A DNA stretch of 64,000 nucleotides from an uncultured Pirellulaceae bacterium. GTDB taxonomy: Bacteria > Planctomycetota > Planctomycetia > Pirellulales > Pirellulaceae. Both the position numbers and the translations under genes were made by a program. A model generated the notes under the pieces. It ran no database searches and had not been told where the DNA came from. It was given only the letters and a program-made list of their open reading frames with translations. Positions 45,043 through 54,440 of this stretch are shown in pieces (within the stretch, counting starts at the first letter, position 1; each line of letters opens with the position of its first letter). Where the stretch lies: positions 1 through 64,000 of the forward strand of contig CALDHM010000019.1 in assembly GCA_937941455.1 (NCBI GenBank). The letters are read 5' to 3'.

Positions 45043-48000
45043 TTATTGTGCCGGTTGCGGTTGCGTGCTGCCTCCACGGGGGGCAGGCTCTGGCAAGCTC
45101 GCTCCGGGTTTGGCCTCCGGTCGGCTTACGGCGCGTTGGCTCGAACGACGCCTTGGGGTGCTGAGAGGTTGGCCGGCAAAGAAATATTCAACCCGCACCA
45201 ACAGGCTCAACATCGTGGGAATCAAAAACAACGTAAGTAACGTCGAGAGCAACAAGCCGCCGAGTACGACAGCGCCCAAGCCGCGATACAGTTCGCTACC
45301 TGCACCTGGAAAAAAGACCAACGGCGACAGCCCGAACAAGGTCGTCAATGTCGACATGAAGATCGGGCGAATCCGAGTTCGCACGCTGTCACTGATCGCA
45401 TCTAAGGGGTGCCTCCCTTCCAAGCGAAAGATTCGCGATTGATGGACGATCAAAATGGCATTGTTGACGACTGTCCCCACGAGGATGACAAAGCCCAGCA
45501 TGGTTAATACATCAAGCGACTGCGGCGGCTCGCCAATTCCCTCCAGGTACCGACTGAGCGCCAACAGACCGATGATTCCCCCAACCGCCCCGAGCGGTAC
45601 GCTCAACATGATCACCAGCGGATATGTCCACGATTCAAATAGAGCAGCCATAAGTAAATAAGTGATCAGAACAGCGAGAGCGAAGTTCCACTTGAGCGCA
45701 TTCCAAGTTTGCGCCAATTTATCGGCGGTCCCGCTAAGATTGACCGTATATTCGGCACCCAACGTTCCGTCGGCCTCGAGCGGAGCGAGCACCTTGGTGC
45801 GAATTAAGGTGATCGCCTCTTCGAGAGACATTTTGGGAGGGGGGGAAACTTCGAGGGTAATGGCTCGTTGCCGCTCGCGATGGTGAATCTGCTCGGGGCC
45901 GCTGCTGAGCGTCGCGTCGGCGATGGCCTCCAGTCGCACGGGTTCCGCCAGGTTTCTCGTGGCGATGTATTGGCCCATGATATCGGGTGTAAGACTGACT
46001 TCTGTTTCGGCTCCCTTGATCACCAAATCGATCTTGTCCCCTTCCATGTAGTAATCGGCAGCGTAGGCTCCGTCGACGAGGGCACTGATGTTGTAGCCCA
46101 ATTCGTCATTGGTGATGCCGACGGCAGCACCTTGTTCTTGTTTGAGCTTGATGTGCAACTCCGGATTGGACAAATCGAGTCCGGGGTTCGGGCGGACTTG
46201 CACGTCGGGAGGAAAATTAGCGCGAATGCTGGCCATCATCCGCCCGCCGAGTTCTACCAGTCGTTCCAGATTCGGCCCTGTAATCTCCAGGTCGATATTG
46301 CGTCCCCCTCCCATGCCGCGTCCGAACAAGCTGGTTTGCGAGGCAACGACGGTGGTGCCCGGGAACCGATTGCGGAGCTTGTTTTGCACCATGTCGACCA
46401 TTTTTCGCGCTCGCAAGTCGTCATGCGCACGCATACCGGCGAACACCGATCGATCGCGAGCCATGTAAAAAAAGTCGGCGATGCTTGGGTAGTCCAAGTG
46501 AGAAGTGTCCTCCGTATCGGGATCAATATCCCAGTAAGGACGCAGGATAGACTCAACCTCCGCTCCCATTTCGTCGAGTTGGTAGATACTGTAGCCGGGC
46601 GGCGTCACAATCGTGCAGAAGACCAGGTTGCGATTGCCGGCCGGCAAATATTCGATCTTGGGAAATTTCCACCAAGCGAACGCGAAGCTGGCACCGATGA
46701 CGCCCAGGATTAACGTTAGGCCGATCCAGACATGGCTGGCAAAATAGCGATTGGCCGAAGTAATCGAGTCGGAAAACCATTGCCCAAAGCTCCGCAAGGC
46801 CCGCGCCGTTTCCGAATCCTCTTGCGGCTCGCCGTGATTGGCGCCCGCCGAGTAGATTCGTGCCGCAGCCGTCGGAATCACCACGACGCTGACCAGGAGC
46901 GACAAGCTGACTGCGATGCAGATGGCCAGCGCGATGTCGCCGAACAGCTGGCCAACTTCGCCCTGCAGAAAAATGACGGGCAAAAACACGGCGAGCGTCG
47001 TCAAAGTCGAGGCGAGCACCGCGCCCCACACCTCGCCGGCGCCGCGTTTTCCAGCTTCGCGCGGAGCGACGCCCTTGTCGAGAAAGCGAACTACGTTTTC
47101 CAGCACGACGATCGCGTTGTCCACCAACATACCAACGGCGAAGGCCAACCCTGCAAGGCTGATGACATTCAGTGTCCGCCCGAGATAACGCAGAAACAAA
47201 AACGTGCCGATCACGCTCAGAGGGATCGCAATCGCGACCACCAACGTTCCGCGAGCGAACCAGAATCCGGCGCCCAGAATCAAGGCGAGCGTCACCAAAA
47301 ACACCCAAGTCGGACCCGAAATTGCAATCAATGCGGTCGCGAGAATCAGCGGCGCGACTATCAGCGATCGTCGCCGCAGATGCAAAAACAACATGAGCAC
47401 GATGACGGTCAACGCTCCGCCGAGGATGATATTTTGCTGGACCAAGCCGACCGCCGATTCGATGTAAGTCGTCTCGTCATACATCTGCACGAGCACCAAA
47501 TCCATTTGATTGAGGATGCCGCGATTGAAGCGTTCCGTCACCTTGCGTAGTTCTCGCATCACCTCGACCGCGTTGGCCGACGTGTCAAGCTGCACGGAGA
47601 GGGACGCCGTGCGCTCGCCGAGGCGTCGCACGAAGCCGGTGTTCTTTTCGAAACCTAATTTGACTTCAGCGACGTCTCTGACGTAAACGCTGGTGCCATC
47701 TCGGTGGCTAATGATCTGATTCGCAACATCCTCCTCAGATTGGTATTTGCCGATCGTACGGACACCGATTTGCTGTTTTCCTTGAACGAAGCTACCGCCC
47801 GAAACGTCGGCATTGTTCTGCAAAAATGCGTTGCGCAGATCAGCGATTGTCAGCCCGCGGGCAGCAAGTTTTGCCGGGTCGACGATTACGTGCAGTTGCC
47901 TTAATTCGCCGCCGCGGACTAAGGTATCCGAAACTCCCGGCACGCGATCGAATTGCGGTTTGAGAACATCCTCCATGAACTTGCGATATTTGGGGACATC

Positions 48001-48600
48001 AAGTTCGGGGGGGACGAGCCTTGCAATTTCAGGATGCTCCCGCGCCAACTCTTTGATGCGAAAAATTTGCAAGCCGACATTTTTGGGGGCGATGGCTCGT
48101 TCCAGCTTCTCGCGCAGGTGGGGGAATCGCCGAGCATACTCCTCGACTTGTTCGCGCGTCGGCGGCTTCTTCGTGAGAATGAACCATCCCGCCGAGCGAT
48201 CGTTTTGGTTGCTGGTCCGGATCACCGGTTTTTGGGCGTCGATCGGATAGTCCCGCACTTGTTGGAGTTGACTATTGACCTTCAGCAACGCCTCGTTCAT
48301 GTTCGTACCGACGCGAAATTCGAGGTTGACCGTACCTGAGGACGTGCGAGCCTCGGAGTACATTTTGGTTACGCCTTCGACGCTTTTGAGTTTTTCCTCT
48401 TGCTCCTTGATAATTTTTGTTTCGACCTCGTGCGGACTGGCTCCTGGCCACATGGTCTGGATGGAAATCTGCGGCCGAGTCACCTCGGGCGAGAGTTGCA
48501 TGGGCATATTGAACATGGCGATCAGCCCAAACAAGCTGAGCAAGATCATCGCCACAGCGACCTTGACGGGATTATTGATAAACCAACCGATTAGCTCCAC
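45043..48600 (-). CDS. RND-family efflux pump permease (AcrB/HAE type)
   Basis: A 1185-residue inner-membrane proton-driven exporter. The N-terminal helix is followed by LSPEVTRPQISIQTMWPGASPHEVE, typical of RND pumps. Two sets of six helices flank two periplasmic domains. TM4 has GLAFAVGMLVDNAIVVLENV, where the acidic pair is Asp-Asn rather than Asp-Asp. The tail after PTMLSLLVRVEYFFAG is a Pro/Arg-rich extension. It lies 57 bp after the adaptor gene. No outer-membrane channel gene is adjacent. The substrate is unknown; the divergent two-component pair may control it. Confidence 0.92.
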   Translation of the reverse strand: MELIGWFINNPVKVAVAMILLSLFGLIAMFNMPMQLSPEVTRPQISIQTMWPGASPHEVETKIIKEQEEKLKSVEGVTKMYSEARTSSGTVNLEFRVGTNMNEALLKVNSQLQQVRDYPIDAQKPVIRTSNQNDRSAGWFILTKKPPTREQVEEYARRFPHLREKLERAIAPKNVGLQIFRIKELAREHPEIARLVPPELDVPKYRKFMEDVLKPQFDRVPGVSDTLVRGGELRQLHVIVDPAKLAARGLTIADLRNAFLQNNADVSGGSFVQGKQQIGVRTIGKYQSEEDVANQIISHRDGTSVYVRDVAEVKLGFEKNTGFVRRLGERTASLSVQLDTSANAVEVMRELRKVTERFNRGILNQMDLVLVQMYDETTYIESAVGLVQQNIILGGALTVIVLMLFLHLRRRSLIVAPLILATALIAISGPTWVFLVTLALILGAGFWFARGTLVVAIAIPLSVIGTFLFLRYLGRTLNVISLAGLAFAVGMLVDNAIVVLENVVRFLDKGVAPREAGKRGAGEVWGAVLASTLTTLAVFLPVIFLQGEVGQLFGDIALAICIAVSLSLLVSVVVIPTAAARIYSAGANHGEPQEDSETARALRSFGQWFSDSITSANRYFASHVWIGLTLILGVIGASFAFAWWKFPKIEYLPAGNRNLVFCTIVTPPGYSIYQLDEMGAEVESILRPYWDIDPDTEDTSHLDYPSIADFFYMARDRSVFAGMRAHDDLRARKMVDMVQNKLRNRFPGTTVVASQTSLFGRGMGGGRNIDLEITGPNLERLVELGGRMMASIRANFPPDVQVRPNPGLDLSNPELHIKLKQEQGAAVGITNDELGYNISALVDGAYAADYYMEGDKIDLVIKGAETEVSLTPDIMGQYIATRNLAEPVRLEAIADATLSSGPEQIHHRERQRAITLEVSPPPKMSLEEAITLIRTKVLAPLEADGTLGAEYTVNLSGTADKLAQTWNALKWNFALAVLITYLLMAALFESWTYPLVIMLSVPLGAVGGIIGLLALSRYLEGIGEPPQSLDVLTMLGFVILVGTVVNNAILIVHQSRIFRLEGRHPLDAISDSVRTRIRPIFMSTLTTLFGLSPLVFFPGAGSELYRGLGAVVLGGLLLSTLLTLFLIPTMLSLLVRVEYFFAGQPLSTPRRRSSQRAVSRPEAKPGASLPEPAPRGGSTQPQPAQ

Positions 48601-48657
48601 GGTTGAATTCCTTTCACTGCATATCGTTGAATGATTGCGTCAAGCTTATTCGGGGAT

Positions 48658-49995
48658 TTATTTGGCATCGCTCGTCGCAAGGTCGCCAAACTCCGGGCGT
48701 TTACTCTGGTTGCGGGTGACGACGACCAAATCGTTGGACTGCAAACGCTCATTTCCTTGAACGACGATCTGATCTCCCGGCTTCAAGTCTCCCGACACTT
48801 CGACCCAAGTGCCGATTTTGTTCCCCAGTTTGACGGGAACCGACACAACGCTCATCCCTTTTTCGACCGGAACGACTTTGAACAGCACCGGCTCAGGCCC
48901 TCCCAGCACGATGGCATCGGTCGAAACAACATTCATTTCTCTGGGAACCCCTACTGTCATCGTAGCCTTTCCGAGCATGCCTGGCTTGAGGACCGGTTGC
49001 TGGCCGACCTGTGGATTAGCGACGCGGGCCACAACAGAAATCATCCGCGTTCGGGTATCGAGTTGAGGAATGACCGCGACGAGGCGTCCTTGTAAAGGCT
49101 CTCGGTATCCATCGACACGCACCTCGATTTGGCTCGCCAATTTTTGATCCGCAAAGGTTTCTTGTAGATCGCCAATGAACTCTTGCGGCACCGAGAAAGA
49201 AAAATCGACGGAACTGAGTTCCACGATCTCGACTACCGGTTGGCCTCTCGACAACCAAGCGCCAACCTCAACCGTTTTGTTGACGATGTAGCCATCAAAA
49301 GAAGCCCGGATATGATGCTTTCGTTCTTGATCCTCGAGGCGAAGAATCTCCTGTCGTGCTGCCGCGCAGCGAGCGGCAGCCTGTTTCAATTTCAGGTCGC
49401 GGGTGGCGCGGAGCGTCTCGAGAGTCCCCTCCGCCTGGATGCGCAACTGGGTATCGGCGAGGTACTGACTGCGCGCCTGCTCGAGTTCCGCCGGAGAAAT
49501 CGCCGTAGCTGAAATTTTCTGCAAGCGGTTGAATTCGTTTTCCGAGAATTTCAGCCGAGCAGCCATCTCTTCGACGCGGGCCTCGGCCAGCTTGATCTCC
49601 AACGGTAGGCTGACGTTCAACTCCTCCGAGGCTTGCTCGGCCAGTTGCAGTTGAATGCGGGCTGCCTGCAGTTCGATCTGCAAGGCTTCGGTCTCGACCT
49701 CCACGAGAACCTGCCCCGGCTCTCGAACTCCCGACTCGCTCGATTTTGGTCCAAAGACCACGTCGCCGCGTTCGACATGGACCGCCTTGACGCGGCCCTC
49801 GACCGCCGATCCGATGACCGCCTGCCGGACCGCCTGCACGTTACCGACGAAGGTTTGCCGATTGACAAAACGCGTCGAGAAAACCTCACTGGTCACCACC
49901 AGTTTGTTTTGGCTGGGCTGCCCGTGCAGGGCCCCCGCAGTCGCCAGAAAAACTATGGTTAGCACCCCCGTCTGGGCCGATCGTCTCATCGTCAT
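48658..49995 (-). CDS. RND efflux periplasmic adaptor (membrane fusion protein)
   Basis: About 445 residues from MTMRRSAQTGVLTIV, a signal peptide. The lipoyl half-motifs are VGNVQAVRQAVIGSAVEGRV and HIRASFDGYIVNKTVEVGAWL. They surround a coiled-coil hairpin (AARIQLQLAEQASEEL, RLQKISATAISPAELEQARSQ). A beta-barrel domain (LASQIEVRVDGYREPLQG) and a C-terminal membrane-proximal domain (GNKIGTWVEVSGDLKPGDQIVV) follow. It would link the RND pump to an outer-membrane channel. The track's longer N-terminus is not needed. Confidence 0.88.
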   Translation of the reverse strand: MTMRRSAQTGVLTIVFLATAGALHGQPSQNKLVVTSEVFSTRFVNRQTFVGNVQAVRQAVIGSAVEGRVKAVHVERGDVVFGPKSSESGVREPGQVLVEVETEALQIELQAARIQLQLAEQASEELNVSLPLEIKLAEARVEEMAARLKFSENEFNRLQKISATAISPAELEQARSQYLADTQLRIQAEGTLETLRATRDLKLKQAAARCAAARQEILRLEDQERKHHIRASFDGYIVNKTVEVGAWLSRGQPVVEIVELSSVDFSFSVPQEFIGDLQETFADQKLASQIEVRVDGYREPLQGRLVAVIPQLDTRTRMISVVARVANPQVGQQPVLKPGMLGKATMTVGVPREMNVVSTDAIVLGGPEPVLFKVVPVEKGMSVVSVPVKLGNKIGTWVEVSGDLKPGDQIVVQGNERLQSNDLVVVTRNQSKRPEFGDLATSDAK

Positions 49996-50354
49996 CTCGT
50001 TTCTGATCTTTCGGAAATTTTTCGCAAAACTTGGTGTACGGTGACGGTAATCAAGTCTACTCCGAGCCAGGGGGTGGTTGATGCCCCACTGTCTCGGCTG
50101 TCCGCCCCGCTCATGCGACGATCCACTCCGCCCGCTTTCTGGGCCGCTCACCTCCCCACTATTGTATTTCACGTGCGTGACTAACGGCCCAATTTACCCG
50201 CAAACCCGTGCCGTTTAAAACGGGCTGCGCGAATTTATGGGAAAAACCGTGGGATTTCGCGAATGGAATTGAGGTTGGTTGGCTTGGGGGAAATTGGTAC
50301 AGTCCCGCCACAAAAAAATTTCGGTTTCTTAACTGCATCGATTATCCGGCCGCC
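49996..50354. other. Divergent spacer between efflux operon and two-component genes
   Basis: About 360 bp. I see no gene and no clear sigma-54 -24/-12 site (TGGC-N8-TTGC) by eye, although the neighbouring regulator is of the NtrC class. Confidence 0.4.
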
Positions 50355-51912
50355 GTGATCGCCCGTTTTCGCATTCGAACGCAACTGTTCATCGCCTTGG
50401 CGATGCTGCTGGTGTTCGTCGGAACGTTGACCTGGACATCCTACCAAGGGGTGGCGAAGTTCCGACAACTGACGAAGAACCTGCACGCCCGTTCGAGCGA
50501 ACTGCCGCTGGTGGCAAAGCTCTCGACGGAGGTCAACGCCCAGCGAGCGCTCTTGACGCAATGCTGCTCGCATCAAGCGGGATCGCCCAGCGAGATTTGG
50601 CTGAATCGGGATCTGTTTCGAAAGAATTTGTCGAGCATTGAGATCGCGTTGGATAACTATGTTGACCAATTAGAAAGCGGTCATGTTTCCGATCCCCTCA
50701 TCGCCGACATTTCGGAGGAGCGGGAACTGGTCAACCTCTTCCGCGTGTCGCTGGCAAAGATCAAAACGTTGTCCGCCGAACAGGACTGGTATTTTGGTCG
50801 TTTTTTTTCGCCGCTGGAGATGGAGCTGGAGACCTTGCAGAAACTCGCCAGCAACCTGCCCTCCATTCTCAAAAAGCGGATGGATGATTTCGCCGACGAT
50901 GCGCGGCGGGAATATCGTGCCGTGGTGAATCTGTCGATGGCTGTTTGCCTCAGCGGTTTCGCCTTGCTTGGATTCCTGGCATGGTCGTTTCACCGCTCAC
51001 TGTTTTCACCCTTGGCGGCCTTGTTGCACGGTACGCGCGAGGTGGCGTCGGGGAATTTCAATTTTCGGGTTTGCACATCTGCGGTCGGCGAAATTGCCGA
51101 ATTGGTCGACGCGTTCAACGGAATGACCGATCGGGTGCAGGAAATCAATCGCGATTTGAACGAGCAAGTACGACAACGCACGAAACAAGTTGTACGCAGT
51201 GAACAAATGGCGAGCGTCGGATTCCTCGCCGCCGGAGTCGCTCATGAAATCAACAACCCGTTGGCCTCGATCGCCTGGAGCGCCGAATCGTTAGAGAATC
51301 GCCTGCCTGAAATCTTGGCGGTCAGCGGCGACAAGACCGAAAAAGAACGGACCGCTGAGATCGAACTCGTGAAGAAATACCTGCGACGGATCCAGGAAGA
51401 AGCCTTTCGCTGCAAGGGGATTACGCATAGCCTCCTGGATTTTTCCCGGTTGGGAGACGCCCGCAAAGCTCCGCACGTCCTGGCAGAGATCGTGGAGGCG
51501 GTGATCGAAATGGTCAAGCCACTCGGGAAATATCGGCACCGGAAAATCCATTTCGTCGGGGATCGTACGCTACGGGTCACCATGAACCCGCAAGAGATCA
51601 AGCAGGTCGTGCTGAACTTGATCACGAACTCGCTGGACGCCATCGATGAAGACGGCGAGGTCTGGATCGAACTTTCACGACAACAAGATCAAGCTGTCCT
51701 CGTCGTGCGGGATAACGGTTGCGGCATGACCGACGAGGTGCGCCGCCACATGTTCGAGCCGTTTTTCACGCGCCGCCGAGACGGGCAGGGGACAGGGTTG
51801 GGCTTGTCCATCAGCTACCGCATCATCGAAGAACACAACGGTCAAATCGAGGCCCACAGTGATGGCCCTGGGACCGGCAGTCAATTTATCATCAGCCTTC
51901 CATTGAATCATC

Positions 51913-53313
<1,401 letters not shown>

Positions 53314-53476: not shown

Positions 53477-53516
53477 GGCGTTGTACCGATCAATTAGGCG
53501 TTGTACCGATCAATTA
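53477..53516. repeat. Perfect 20-bp tandem duplication
   Basis: GGCGTTGTACCGATCAATTA occurs twice in direct succession with no change. On the minus strand the second copy begins with the TAA that ends the HMA-like reading frame. Confidence 0.85.
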
Positions 53517-53702
53517 CTCGATGCGGCTCCAATTCGCGAACTTATCATTTTTCTCCGCAAGTTCATTAAGGAGCGAATAAAGGTCTTTGTACTTGCTCCT
53601 CGCGATTTGAAATTCGCAGGTCATTTCCTCGACATCGGTCTTGATCAACAAAATCCCCGGACAGGCCGCCAGCTCGCTTCGCACGGAAGCCGCACAACCC
53701 GT
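53514..53702 (-). CDS. In-frame HMA-like continuation of the YceI gene behind a TGA codon
   Basis: Directly after the YceI TGA, the same frame reads 62 residues to TAA: TGCAASVRSELAACPGILL, IKTDVEEMTCEFQIARSKY and so on. Joined to the preceding EMS, this gives M-S-(TGA)-T-G-C, the position of the M-x-C-x-x-C metal loop of HMA domains, followed by an HMA-like helix and strand (V-x3-L-x3-PGI-x5-D). No start codon or ribosome site serves this part alone. It is either the C-terminal half of a selenoprotein or the remains of a fusion protein cut by a nonsense mutation. Confidence 0.7.
   Translation of the reverse strand, partial: TGCAASVRSELAACPGILLIKTDVEEMTCEFQIARSKYKDLYSLLNELAEKNDKFANWSRIE
53676..53690 (-). 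promoter_or_regulatory. Candidate SECIS-like hairpin after the TGA
   Basis: On the minus strand GCTTC-CGTGC-GAAGC forms a perfect 5-bp stem with a 5-nt loop. It begins 12 nt after the TGA, so the loop starts 17 nt downstream. The second loop base is G. From memory, this meets the loose bacterial SECIS pattern. A 5-bp stem in GC-rich DNA can also arise by chance. Confidence 0.35.
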
Positions 53703-54440
53703 TCAGCTCATCTCCGGCAACGACAGCCGCACGTGAATGTAGCCCGGAAGAGCGGCCGCGGACGACTCTTTCGCCTTGTTGCCGCGACGCCGCGGCGGTG
53801 CACTTTCACGCGGTTTCGTCGCCTCACCGACCTTGACCTCGATCGTAACGATCGGCTCGACGCCGTTGGTCATTTTCTTCATGCCGAAGTGGGTCCGATC
53901 GATCTGGAACTTGCCATGCAGGGTCAAGCCTTCAGGACTCAGCTCCGGTCGGGCCGAAAAGGTAATCTCCTTGGTTTCGCCGTGCATGGTCAGGTTCCCT
54001 GAGATCGCCAGACTGCCACCATCTGCTTTCTTGATCGAAGTGCTGCTAAACGTAGCGGACGGAAATTTCTCTGCTTCAAAAAAATCAGCATTCATCAGAT
54101 GCGCGGTCAAGTCATCGAATTCTGTCCAAATGGAATTGATTTTGAATTCGACATCGATCTTTTCGATTTCGGTGCCGTCGGCATTGACCTTGATTTTTCC
54201 AGCGAACTCGCGAAATCCGCCGAGACGGGGCATCGGATCGTCCCCAACGTGCGTGCCGACGAACTCCACCGACGTATTGCCAGGATTCAACTCAGCAATT
54301 TGGTCAACGATCTTCAGGGGAGCCAATCGAACTTGGTCATTGGCCTGGGCATTCTGCCCGTTCACGGCCCGGCAGGTAGCACAAAAAATGACGGACAGTG
54401 CGAAAAGCGGCAACAGTTTGTTCGAAAACACTTTGGGCAT
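53703..54440 (-). CDS. YceI-family lipid-binding-type periplasmic protein (up to the TGA)
   Basis: 245 residues to the TGA. The start MPKVFSNKLLPLFALS gives a signal peptide ending AVNGQ; the track's longer start lacks support. The YceI lipocalin-like barrel is clear: NPGNTSVEFVGTHVG, FAGKIKVNADGTEIEKIDVEFKINSIWTEFDDLTAHLMNADFFEAEKFPSATFSSTSI, GNLTMHGETKEITF and KFQIDRTHFGMKKM. Members bind polyisoprenoids or respond to stress. A basic linker (PPRRRGNKAKE) then leads to GYIHVRLSLPEMS and the TGA. That linker plus strand would open an HMA domain, so this stop may not be the real end. Confidence 0.85.
   Translation of the reverse strand: MPKVFSNKLLPLFALSVIFCATCRAVNGQNAQANDQVRLAPLKIVDQIAELNPGNTSVEFVGTHVGDDPMPRLGGFREFAGKIKVNADGTEIEKIDVEFKINSIWTEFDDLTAHLMNADFFEAEKFPSATFSSTSIKKADGGSLAISGNLTMHGETKEITFSARPELSPEGLTLHGKFQIDRTHFGMKKMTNGVEPIVTIEVKVGEATKPRESAPPRRRGNKAKESSAAALPGYIHVRLSLPEMS

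Follow-up and report, generated by a model that had tools for sequence, protein, structure and literature searches.

Does the TGA in the metal loop of an apparently secreted YceI protein end the gene, or is it read as selenocysteine (Sec)? The question is posed by a minus-strand frame in the window, by which we mean the whole 64-kb stretch of DNA that was analysed. Starting at 54440, this frame reads MPKV...RLSLPEMS-TGA-TGCAASVRSELAACPGILL...SRIE-TAA, and downstream of the TGA it stays open as TGCAASVRSELAACPGILLIKTDVEEMTCEFQIARSKYKDLYSLLNELAEKNDKFANWSRIE, ending at a TAA at 53514-53516. Comparison with related genomes indicates that the TGA at 53703-53705 almost certainly encodes Sec in the metal loop of the secreted YceI protein.

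A YceI-HMA fusion with an internal TGA

A preliminary description of this DNA had read LPEMS-TGA followed by an HMA-like continuation, with the TGA in place of the first Cys of the HMA loop. Both readings proved sound and their coordinates correct (Table 1): when Cys is put for TGA, PF00403 (HMA; cut-off 24.8) scores 28.6 bits on the tail and 26.1 bits on the whole window protein, together with 34-39 bits in relatives, and with the TGA as Sec the metal loop becomes M-S-U-T-G-C. The body of the protein scores 107.9-109.5 bits with PF04264 (YceI).

Table 1 Features of the YceI-HMA locus and its neighbours in the window.
Feature	Position	Strand	Evidence or remark
RND efflux permease (45043-48600) and adaptor (48658-50172)	45043-50172	-	adaptor position kept in G022
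Sensor histidine kinase, divergent neighbour	50208-51950	+	same order in same-genus G022; not conserved in other genera
NtrC-type sigma-54 response regulator, neighbour	51913-53313	+	
YceI-HMA selenoprotein gene (predicted), complete	53514-54440	-	308 aa with TGA as Sec, then TAA; 9 homologues aligned over full length
HMA domain with predicted Sec, residues ~234-303	53532-53741	-	PF00403 above cut-off (Cys for Sec); predicted beta-alpha-beta-beta-alpha; Foldseek 1osd, 6a71
bSECIS-like hairpin GCTTC-CGTGC-GAAGC	53676-53690	-	same in 11/11 fusions; codons frozen 5/5; stem covariation in relatives
Partner Cys codon TGT, residue 249, of the U-x-x-C loop	53694-53696	-	invariant in alignments A1, A2 and A3
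In-frame TGA, predicted Sec codon, residue 246	53703-53705	-	same column in 10 other genomes
YceI domain (lipocalin-like, isoprenoid-binding)	53829-54290	-	PF04264 109.5 bits; Foldseek 1wub, 1y0g, 5ixh, E 1e-11 to 1e-12
Predicted signal peptide, residues ~1-28	54357-54440	-	inferred from hydrophobic N-terminus and low-confidence N-terminal helix in the model

A structural model of the window protein generated using AlphaFold2 (ten sequences, mean pLDDT 76) has a barrel in its YceI half, followed by a tail of beta-alpha-beta-beta-alpha order. Foldseek matched the YceI half to the polyisoprenoid-binding protein TT1927b, E. coli YceI and BcnA, and the HMA half to oxidised MerP (1osd, TMt 0.75) and an HMA domain of ATP7B (6a71, TMt 0.83). 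The order of the predicted elements and these Foldseek matches are those of the ferredoxin-like HMA fold, with a last strand that is short in the model, and a profile search returned Cu ATPases and MerP.

The order of adaptor, kinase, regulator and YceI-HMA genes is kept only in G022, a genome of the same genus; in other genera the neighbours are unrelated. Because the neighbours differ between genera, we do not assign YceI-HMA to the kinase, regulator and efflux cluster, and there is no conserved metal or redox operon backing a function for it.

Conservation of the TGA and of the frame behind it

Besides the host, 10 of 241 genomes of the same family encode a fusion whose alignment runs across the TGA (41-65% identity). 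These fusions contain exactly one internal stop apiece, which is always TGA, with the HMA frame open behind it, and the loop lies at the same column in all fusions as M-[STF]-U-[TS]-G-C-[AE]-A-S-V-R-S. The preliminary description had named two observations that would bear on its reading, namely HMA domains, with Cys at this position, at the C-terminus of YceI homologues and, as a refutation, sister strains with an early stop and a decayed tail. HMA domains were found in these ten further fusions, with TGA at the shared column; as to the second, the frame behind the TGA is open both in same-genus G022 and in nine genomes from other genera, contrary to the refuting condition. Invariance in the ten aligned fusions extends past the loop, to columns of T, L, A, N, K and W, which argues that the tail is not a decayed remnant.

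In the genomes compared, the YceI fusions are restricted to genera g1, g11 and g46, with a decayed copy in g23. Decay was seen in L057 (G061 contig 275, 24900-25277), a YceI-HMA sequence in which the TGA is kept, the second loop Cys has become Arg and in-frame TAG codons are present.

A hairpin downstream of the TGA is conserved as RNA

Bacterial SECIS elements have a small apical loop with a guanosine and lie after the UGA (PMC1088965). The hairpin GCTTC-CGTGC-GAAGC (53690-53676) has a 5-bp stem and a 5-nt loop with G as its second base, and starts 12 nt past the TGA, just as first described; its sequence occurs once in the 64-kb window, and it is conserved in the 10 other genomes, so that the 15 nt are identical in 11/11 YceI-HMA fusions. 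No base of its codons (GCT TCC GTG CGA AGC, from two codons past the partner Cys) varies across the ten aligned fusions. In these, all five hairpin codons are single-codon columns, as compared with 1 of 56 other invariant residue columns (Met and Trp excluded), an arrangement expected by chance about once in a million (hypergeometric, 6 single-codon columns among 61).

Among relatives, the stem changes and its pairing is retained, as seen in GCCTC-GGTCC-GAGGC, GCGTC-GGTCC-GACGC, ACGTC-GGTCC-GACGT, GTTTC-GGTCC-GAAAC, GCTGC-GGTCC-GCAGC, GCGTT-GGTCC-AACGC and CGTTC-CGTGC-GAACG. Over 63 unselected distinct TGA modules, 84% of stem positions pair in one fixed register, as against 33-49% when the partner is slid, and the highest value among 2,000 column shuffles was 75%; many of the modules that are off register pair via a longer loop (CGTGAA) or with the stem moved by 3 nt (TCAGTGC-GGTCT-GCACTGA). 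Two-sided changes were present in all 5 pairs among 21 representatives (alignment A4), and the observed covariation score was reached by 0 of 500 shuffles; the A4 rows were picked among modules with a 5-nt loop, and the unselected figure is the 84% over 63 modules. In minimum-energy folding of the window RNA alone, the hairpin was not the minimum-energy fold (z-scores -0.7 and +0.2), and folding of single relatives gave no significant hairpin. As energy folding gives no significant result for sequences taken singly, the hairpin claim rests on comparison, by which the hairpin is selected as RNA.

The host genome encodes the Sec machinery

The preliminary description had also pointed to the sel genes, whose absence would count against Sec. 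All were found in the host assembly (4.04 Mb, 77 contigs, 96% complete), including SelA (564 bits), SelB (335 bits, over cut-off), SelD (364 bits) and a tRNA-Sec (70.7 bits) for which ARAGORN concurs, with anticodon TCA (UCA). The host is thus equipped to decode UGA as Sec. SelD itself (L010, C73:15254-16189) has an in-frame TGA inside its SCAG-U motif, and is a second host gene with TGA at a known Sec position. The same genome encodes 17 PF07596 (DUF1559-type) proteins, a family typical of planctomycetes, as compared with 0 in 14 control genomes, and is thereby identified as that of a planctomycete.

Sec and Cys forms of the module

We ran a profile of the module (A1) on the 241 genomes of the same family. 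In another search profile, A2, one row is a composite of two relatives, used for searching only. With A1, TGA copies were identified in 48 of the 241 genomes. The TGA modules number 67 in all. SelA was present in 43 of these 48 genomes and in 73 of the 193 others (Fisher p = 3e-11, a value that is only indicative because the genomes are related). Of the five TGA-HMA genomes without SelA, SelB is present in three, and the other two are drafts that are 80 and 86% complete.

Some homologues (L083, L096, L108 and L121) have Cys where the others have Sec; SelB is missing from the genomes of L108 and L121. G004 and G005, which are 99% complete and without SelB, have Cys at this position and no hairpin; G019 and G045 carry the Cys form despite possessing SelB. 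Beyond the family, our class sample showed the TGA module in four or more further families of the class, and a thin sample of the phylum added one further TGA case, from the same class. A search of named genomes with a Cys-back-translated query returned Cys homologues only, mostly from Azospirillum. In G043 (contig 350, L094), the same two-part protein is encoded twice, side by side, once in a Sec form and once in a Cys form, making a natural Sec/Cys pair.

The module occurs in several architectures

The commonest architecture of the module is a stand-alone exported, lipoprotein-like protein, usually with a low-complexity linker. Elsewhere (L098, L109, L112, L124 and others) it is joined to a secreted domain that is helical and weakly resembles Spy or Metal_resist, with matches below curated cut-offs. 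Among the YceI proteins, paralogues of the same family (L035, L036, L037 and L041) bear C-terminal EF-hand-like DxDGDG repeats instead of HMA; given such tails on related proteins, YceI appears to be a carrier for exchangeable C-terminal domains.

One lipoprotein-like frame of 450 aa (L123:3534-4886, plus strand, G061 contig 92) contains the HMA module in four copies and has four TGA codons in frame, with a hairpin of the CAGTGC-GGTCT-GCACTG type behind each TGA, one of them a weaker variant. Its product is a candidate four-Sec protein, which would exceed the maximum of three Sec per protein in a 2026 inventory of prokaryotic selenoproteins (PMC13188914).

How is the UGA read?

As judged from sequence, the case for Sec combines the Sec machinery, the conserved TGA, a conserved and covarying hairpin, a conserved downstream domain and the use of Cys where SelB is absent, all of which were shown above. 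Points against it are that the hairpin is not the minimum-energy fold of this RNA by itself and that G019 and G045 carry Cys copies although they have SelB. On these grounds we consider the identity of residue 246 as Sec to be very nearly certain, and we have almost as much confidence that the locus as a whole, function apart, is a Sec-encoding YceI-HMA gene. A single-base nonsense mutation could in principle have ended the gene early and left the HMA tail as a decaying remnant, and one decayed YceI-HMA fusion, L057, is indeed known. Ten other genomes, however, share the TGA column together with an open and conserved tail, the hairpin codons are frozen and the stem covaries; this reading is refuted by these observations and has a negligible probability. 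It is also very improbable that the UGA is read as Cys or Trp, by near-cognate decoding or a variant code: relatives without SelB do have Cys at the position, but such a reading would leave the Sec machinery, the covarying hairpin at the bSECIS position and the co-occurrence with SelA without a role.

A further proposal extends the Sec reading, in that the UGA may act as a switch with two outcomes, yielding a free YceI lipocalin when selenium is low and adding the HMA domain when selenium is available. The UGA at residue 246 lies past the complete YceI domain (residues 51-204) and its linker, so that termination would leave a folded protein. In stand-alone copies, on the other hand, termination leaves a signal peptide and linker only, so that the module cannot in general have been built as a switch, and we think it rather unlikely that one operates here.

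Proposed function of the Sec-HMA module

Decoding of the UGA as Sec would yield an exported two-domain protein, with YceI at the N-terminus and HMA, carrying M-S-Sec-T-G-Cys, at the C-terminus. The lipocalin-like YceI domain would be expected to hold an isoprenoid or quinone: YceI lipocalins bind isoprenoids or ubiquinone-8, and the YceI protein BcnA helps to clear membrane lipid peroxyl radicals and protects against them (PMC9113575). In its extracytoplasmic setting the Sec-Cys pair may bind a soft metal, such as Cu(I), Hg(II) or Ag(I), with high affinity, or act as a selenol/thiol redox pair, which the YceI half would set at the membrane, plausibly limiting metal-driven lipid peroxidation.

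Judging from the loop, we lean slightly towards metal binding as the main role. Differing in function only, the module might instead be mainly a redox or peroxidase-like site, a role that would fit with UxxC as the usual redox signature of selenoproteins (PMC13188914), with the part played by secreted YceI lipocalins in lipid peroxide defence (PMC9113575) and with a further Cys in a later strand, which is common though not invariant. Yet the fold and the M-x-C-x-x-C loop are those of Cu/Hg carriers, and the best relatives in both sequence and fold are ATP7B, CopA and MerP, so that a mainly redox role seems plausible but somewhat improbable. At its broadest, the mobile Sec-HMA module could serve across the class as an envelope metal/redox device on varied carriers, with the UGA of the YceI fusion acting as a selenium switch as well; we offer this combined picture tentatively, and doubt that it holds in full.

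Comparison with known selenoproteins and metal carriers

The locus had been put forward as a candidate new selenoprotein. The predicted Sec reading stands on the TGA, the hairpin and the sel genes; the novelty needs to be narrowed, since Sec in HMA-type proteins is already known as a kind, in a UxxC P-type ATPase, NF041115 and NF045683. The 2026 inventory lists 119 prokaryotic selenoprotein families, including a UxxC P-type ATPase, a MerT-type transporter and a UxxU metal-binding protein (PMC13188914), but none of the 119 is a YceI family or a secreted HMA family with a single Sec. In the literature outside subscription papers, we found no paper joining selenoprotein and YceI.

What looks like a new selenoprotein family extends over 48 of 241 genomes of one family and several other families of the class, and takes in both a Sec-lipocalin fusion and a candidate four-Sec protein. 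Since standard annotation stops genes at UGA, databases probably lack the metal-binding half of many envelope proteins of this sort. The family also raises the question of why Sec is used in a metal-carrier loop outside the cell.

Several known systems resemble parts of the fusion. E. coli YceI, TT1927b and BcnA have the secreted N-terminal domain in common with it, without HMA or Sec. MerP, CopZ and the HMA domains of ATP7B share the fold and the M-x-[CU]-x-x-C loop with the module but have two Cys and no Sec, and the P-x-M-T-U-x-G-C-A-x-S-V-R block and C-terminal N-x(5)-W are traits of the present lineage. The cation-transporting E1-E2 ATPase selenoprotein (TIGR01525, ABB15669), of the heavy-metal ATPase family, likewise has UxxC, there within a large membrane pump and here in a small exported domain on YceI. 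NF045683, a MerT/CopZ fusion-like heavy metal transport selenoprotein, also places Sec in a CopZ/MerP-like transport protein, but is a membrane MerT fusion with a cut-off of 375; the HMA part of two relatives scored 20.7-23.2 bits, and the window protein gave no match to it at E 0.1. Finally, NF041115, a UxxU metal-binding (seleno)protein formerly described as a putative mercuric reductase, has a similar HMA-like metal loop with Sec. It contains two Sec and has a cut-off of 95, whereas the modules tested here are UxxC and scored 14.1-28.3 bits. With scores far below both of these cut-offs and absence from the 2026 inventory, the module is best seen as a new family of a known kind, and apparently as one widespread, so far undescribed family of putative Sec metal-binding domains.
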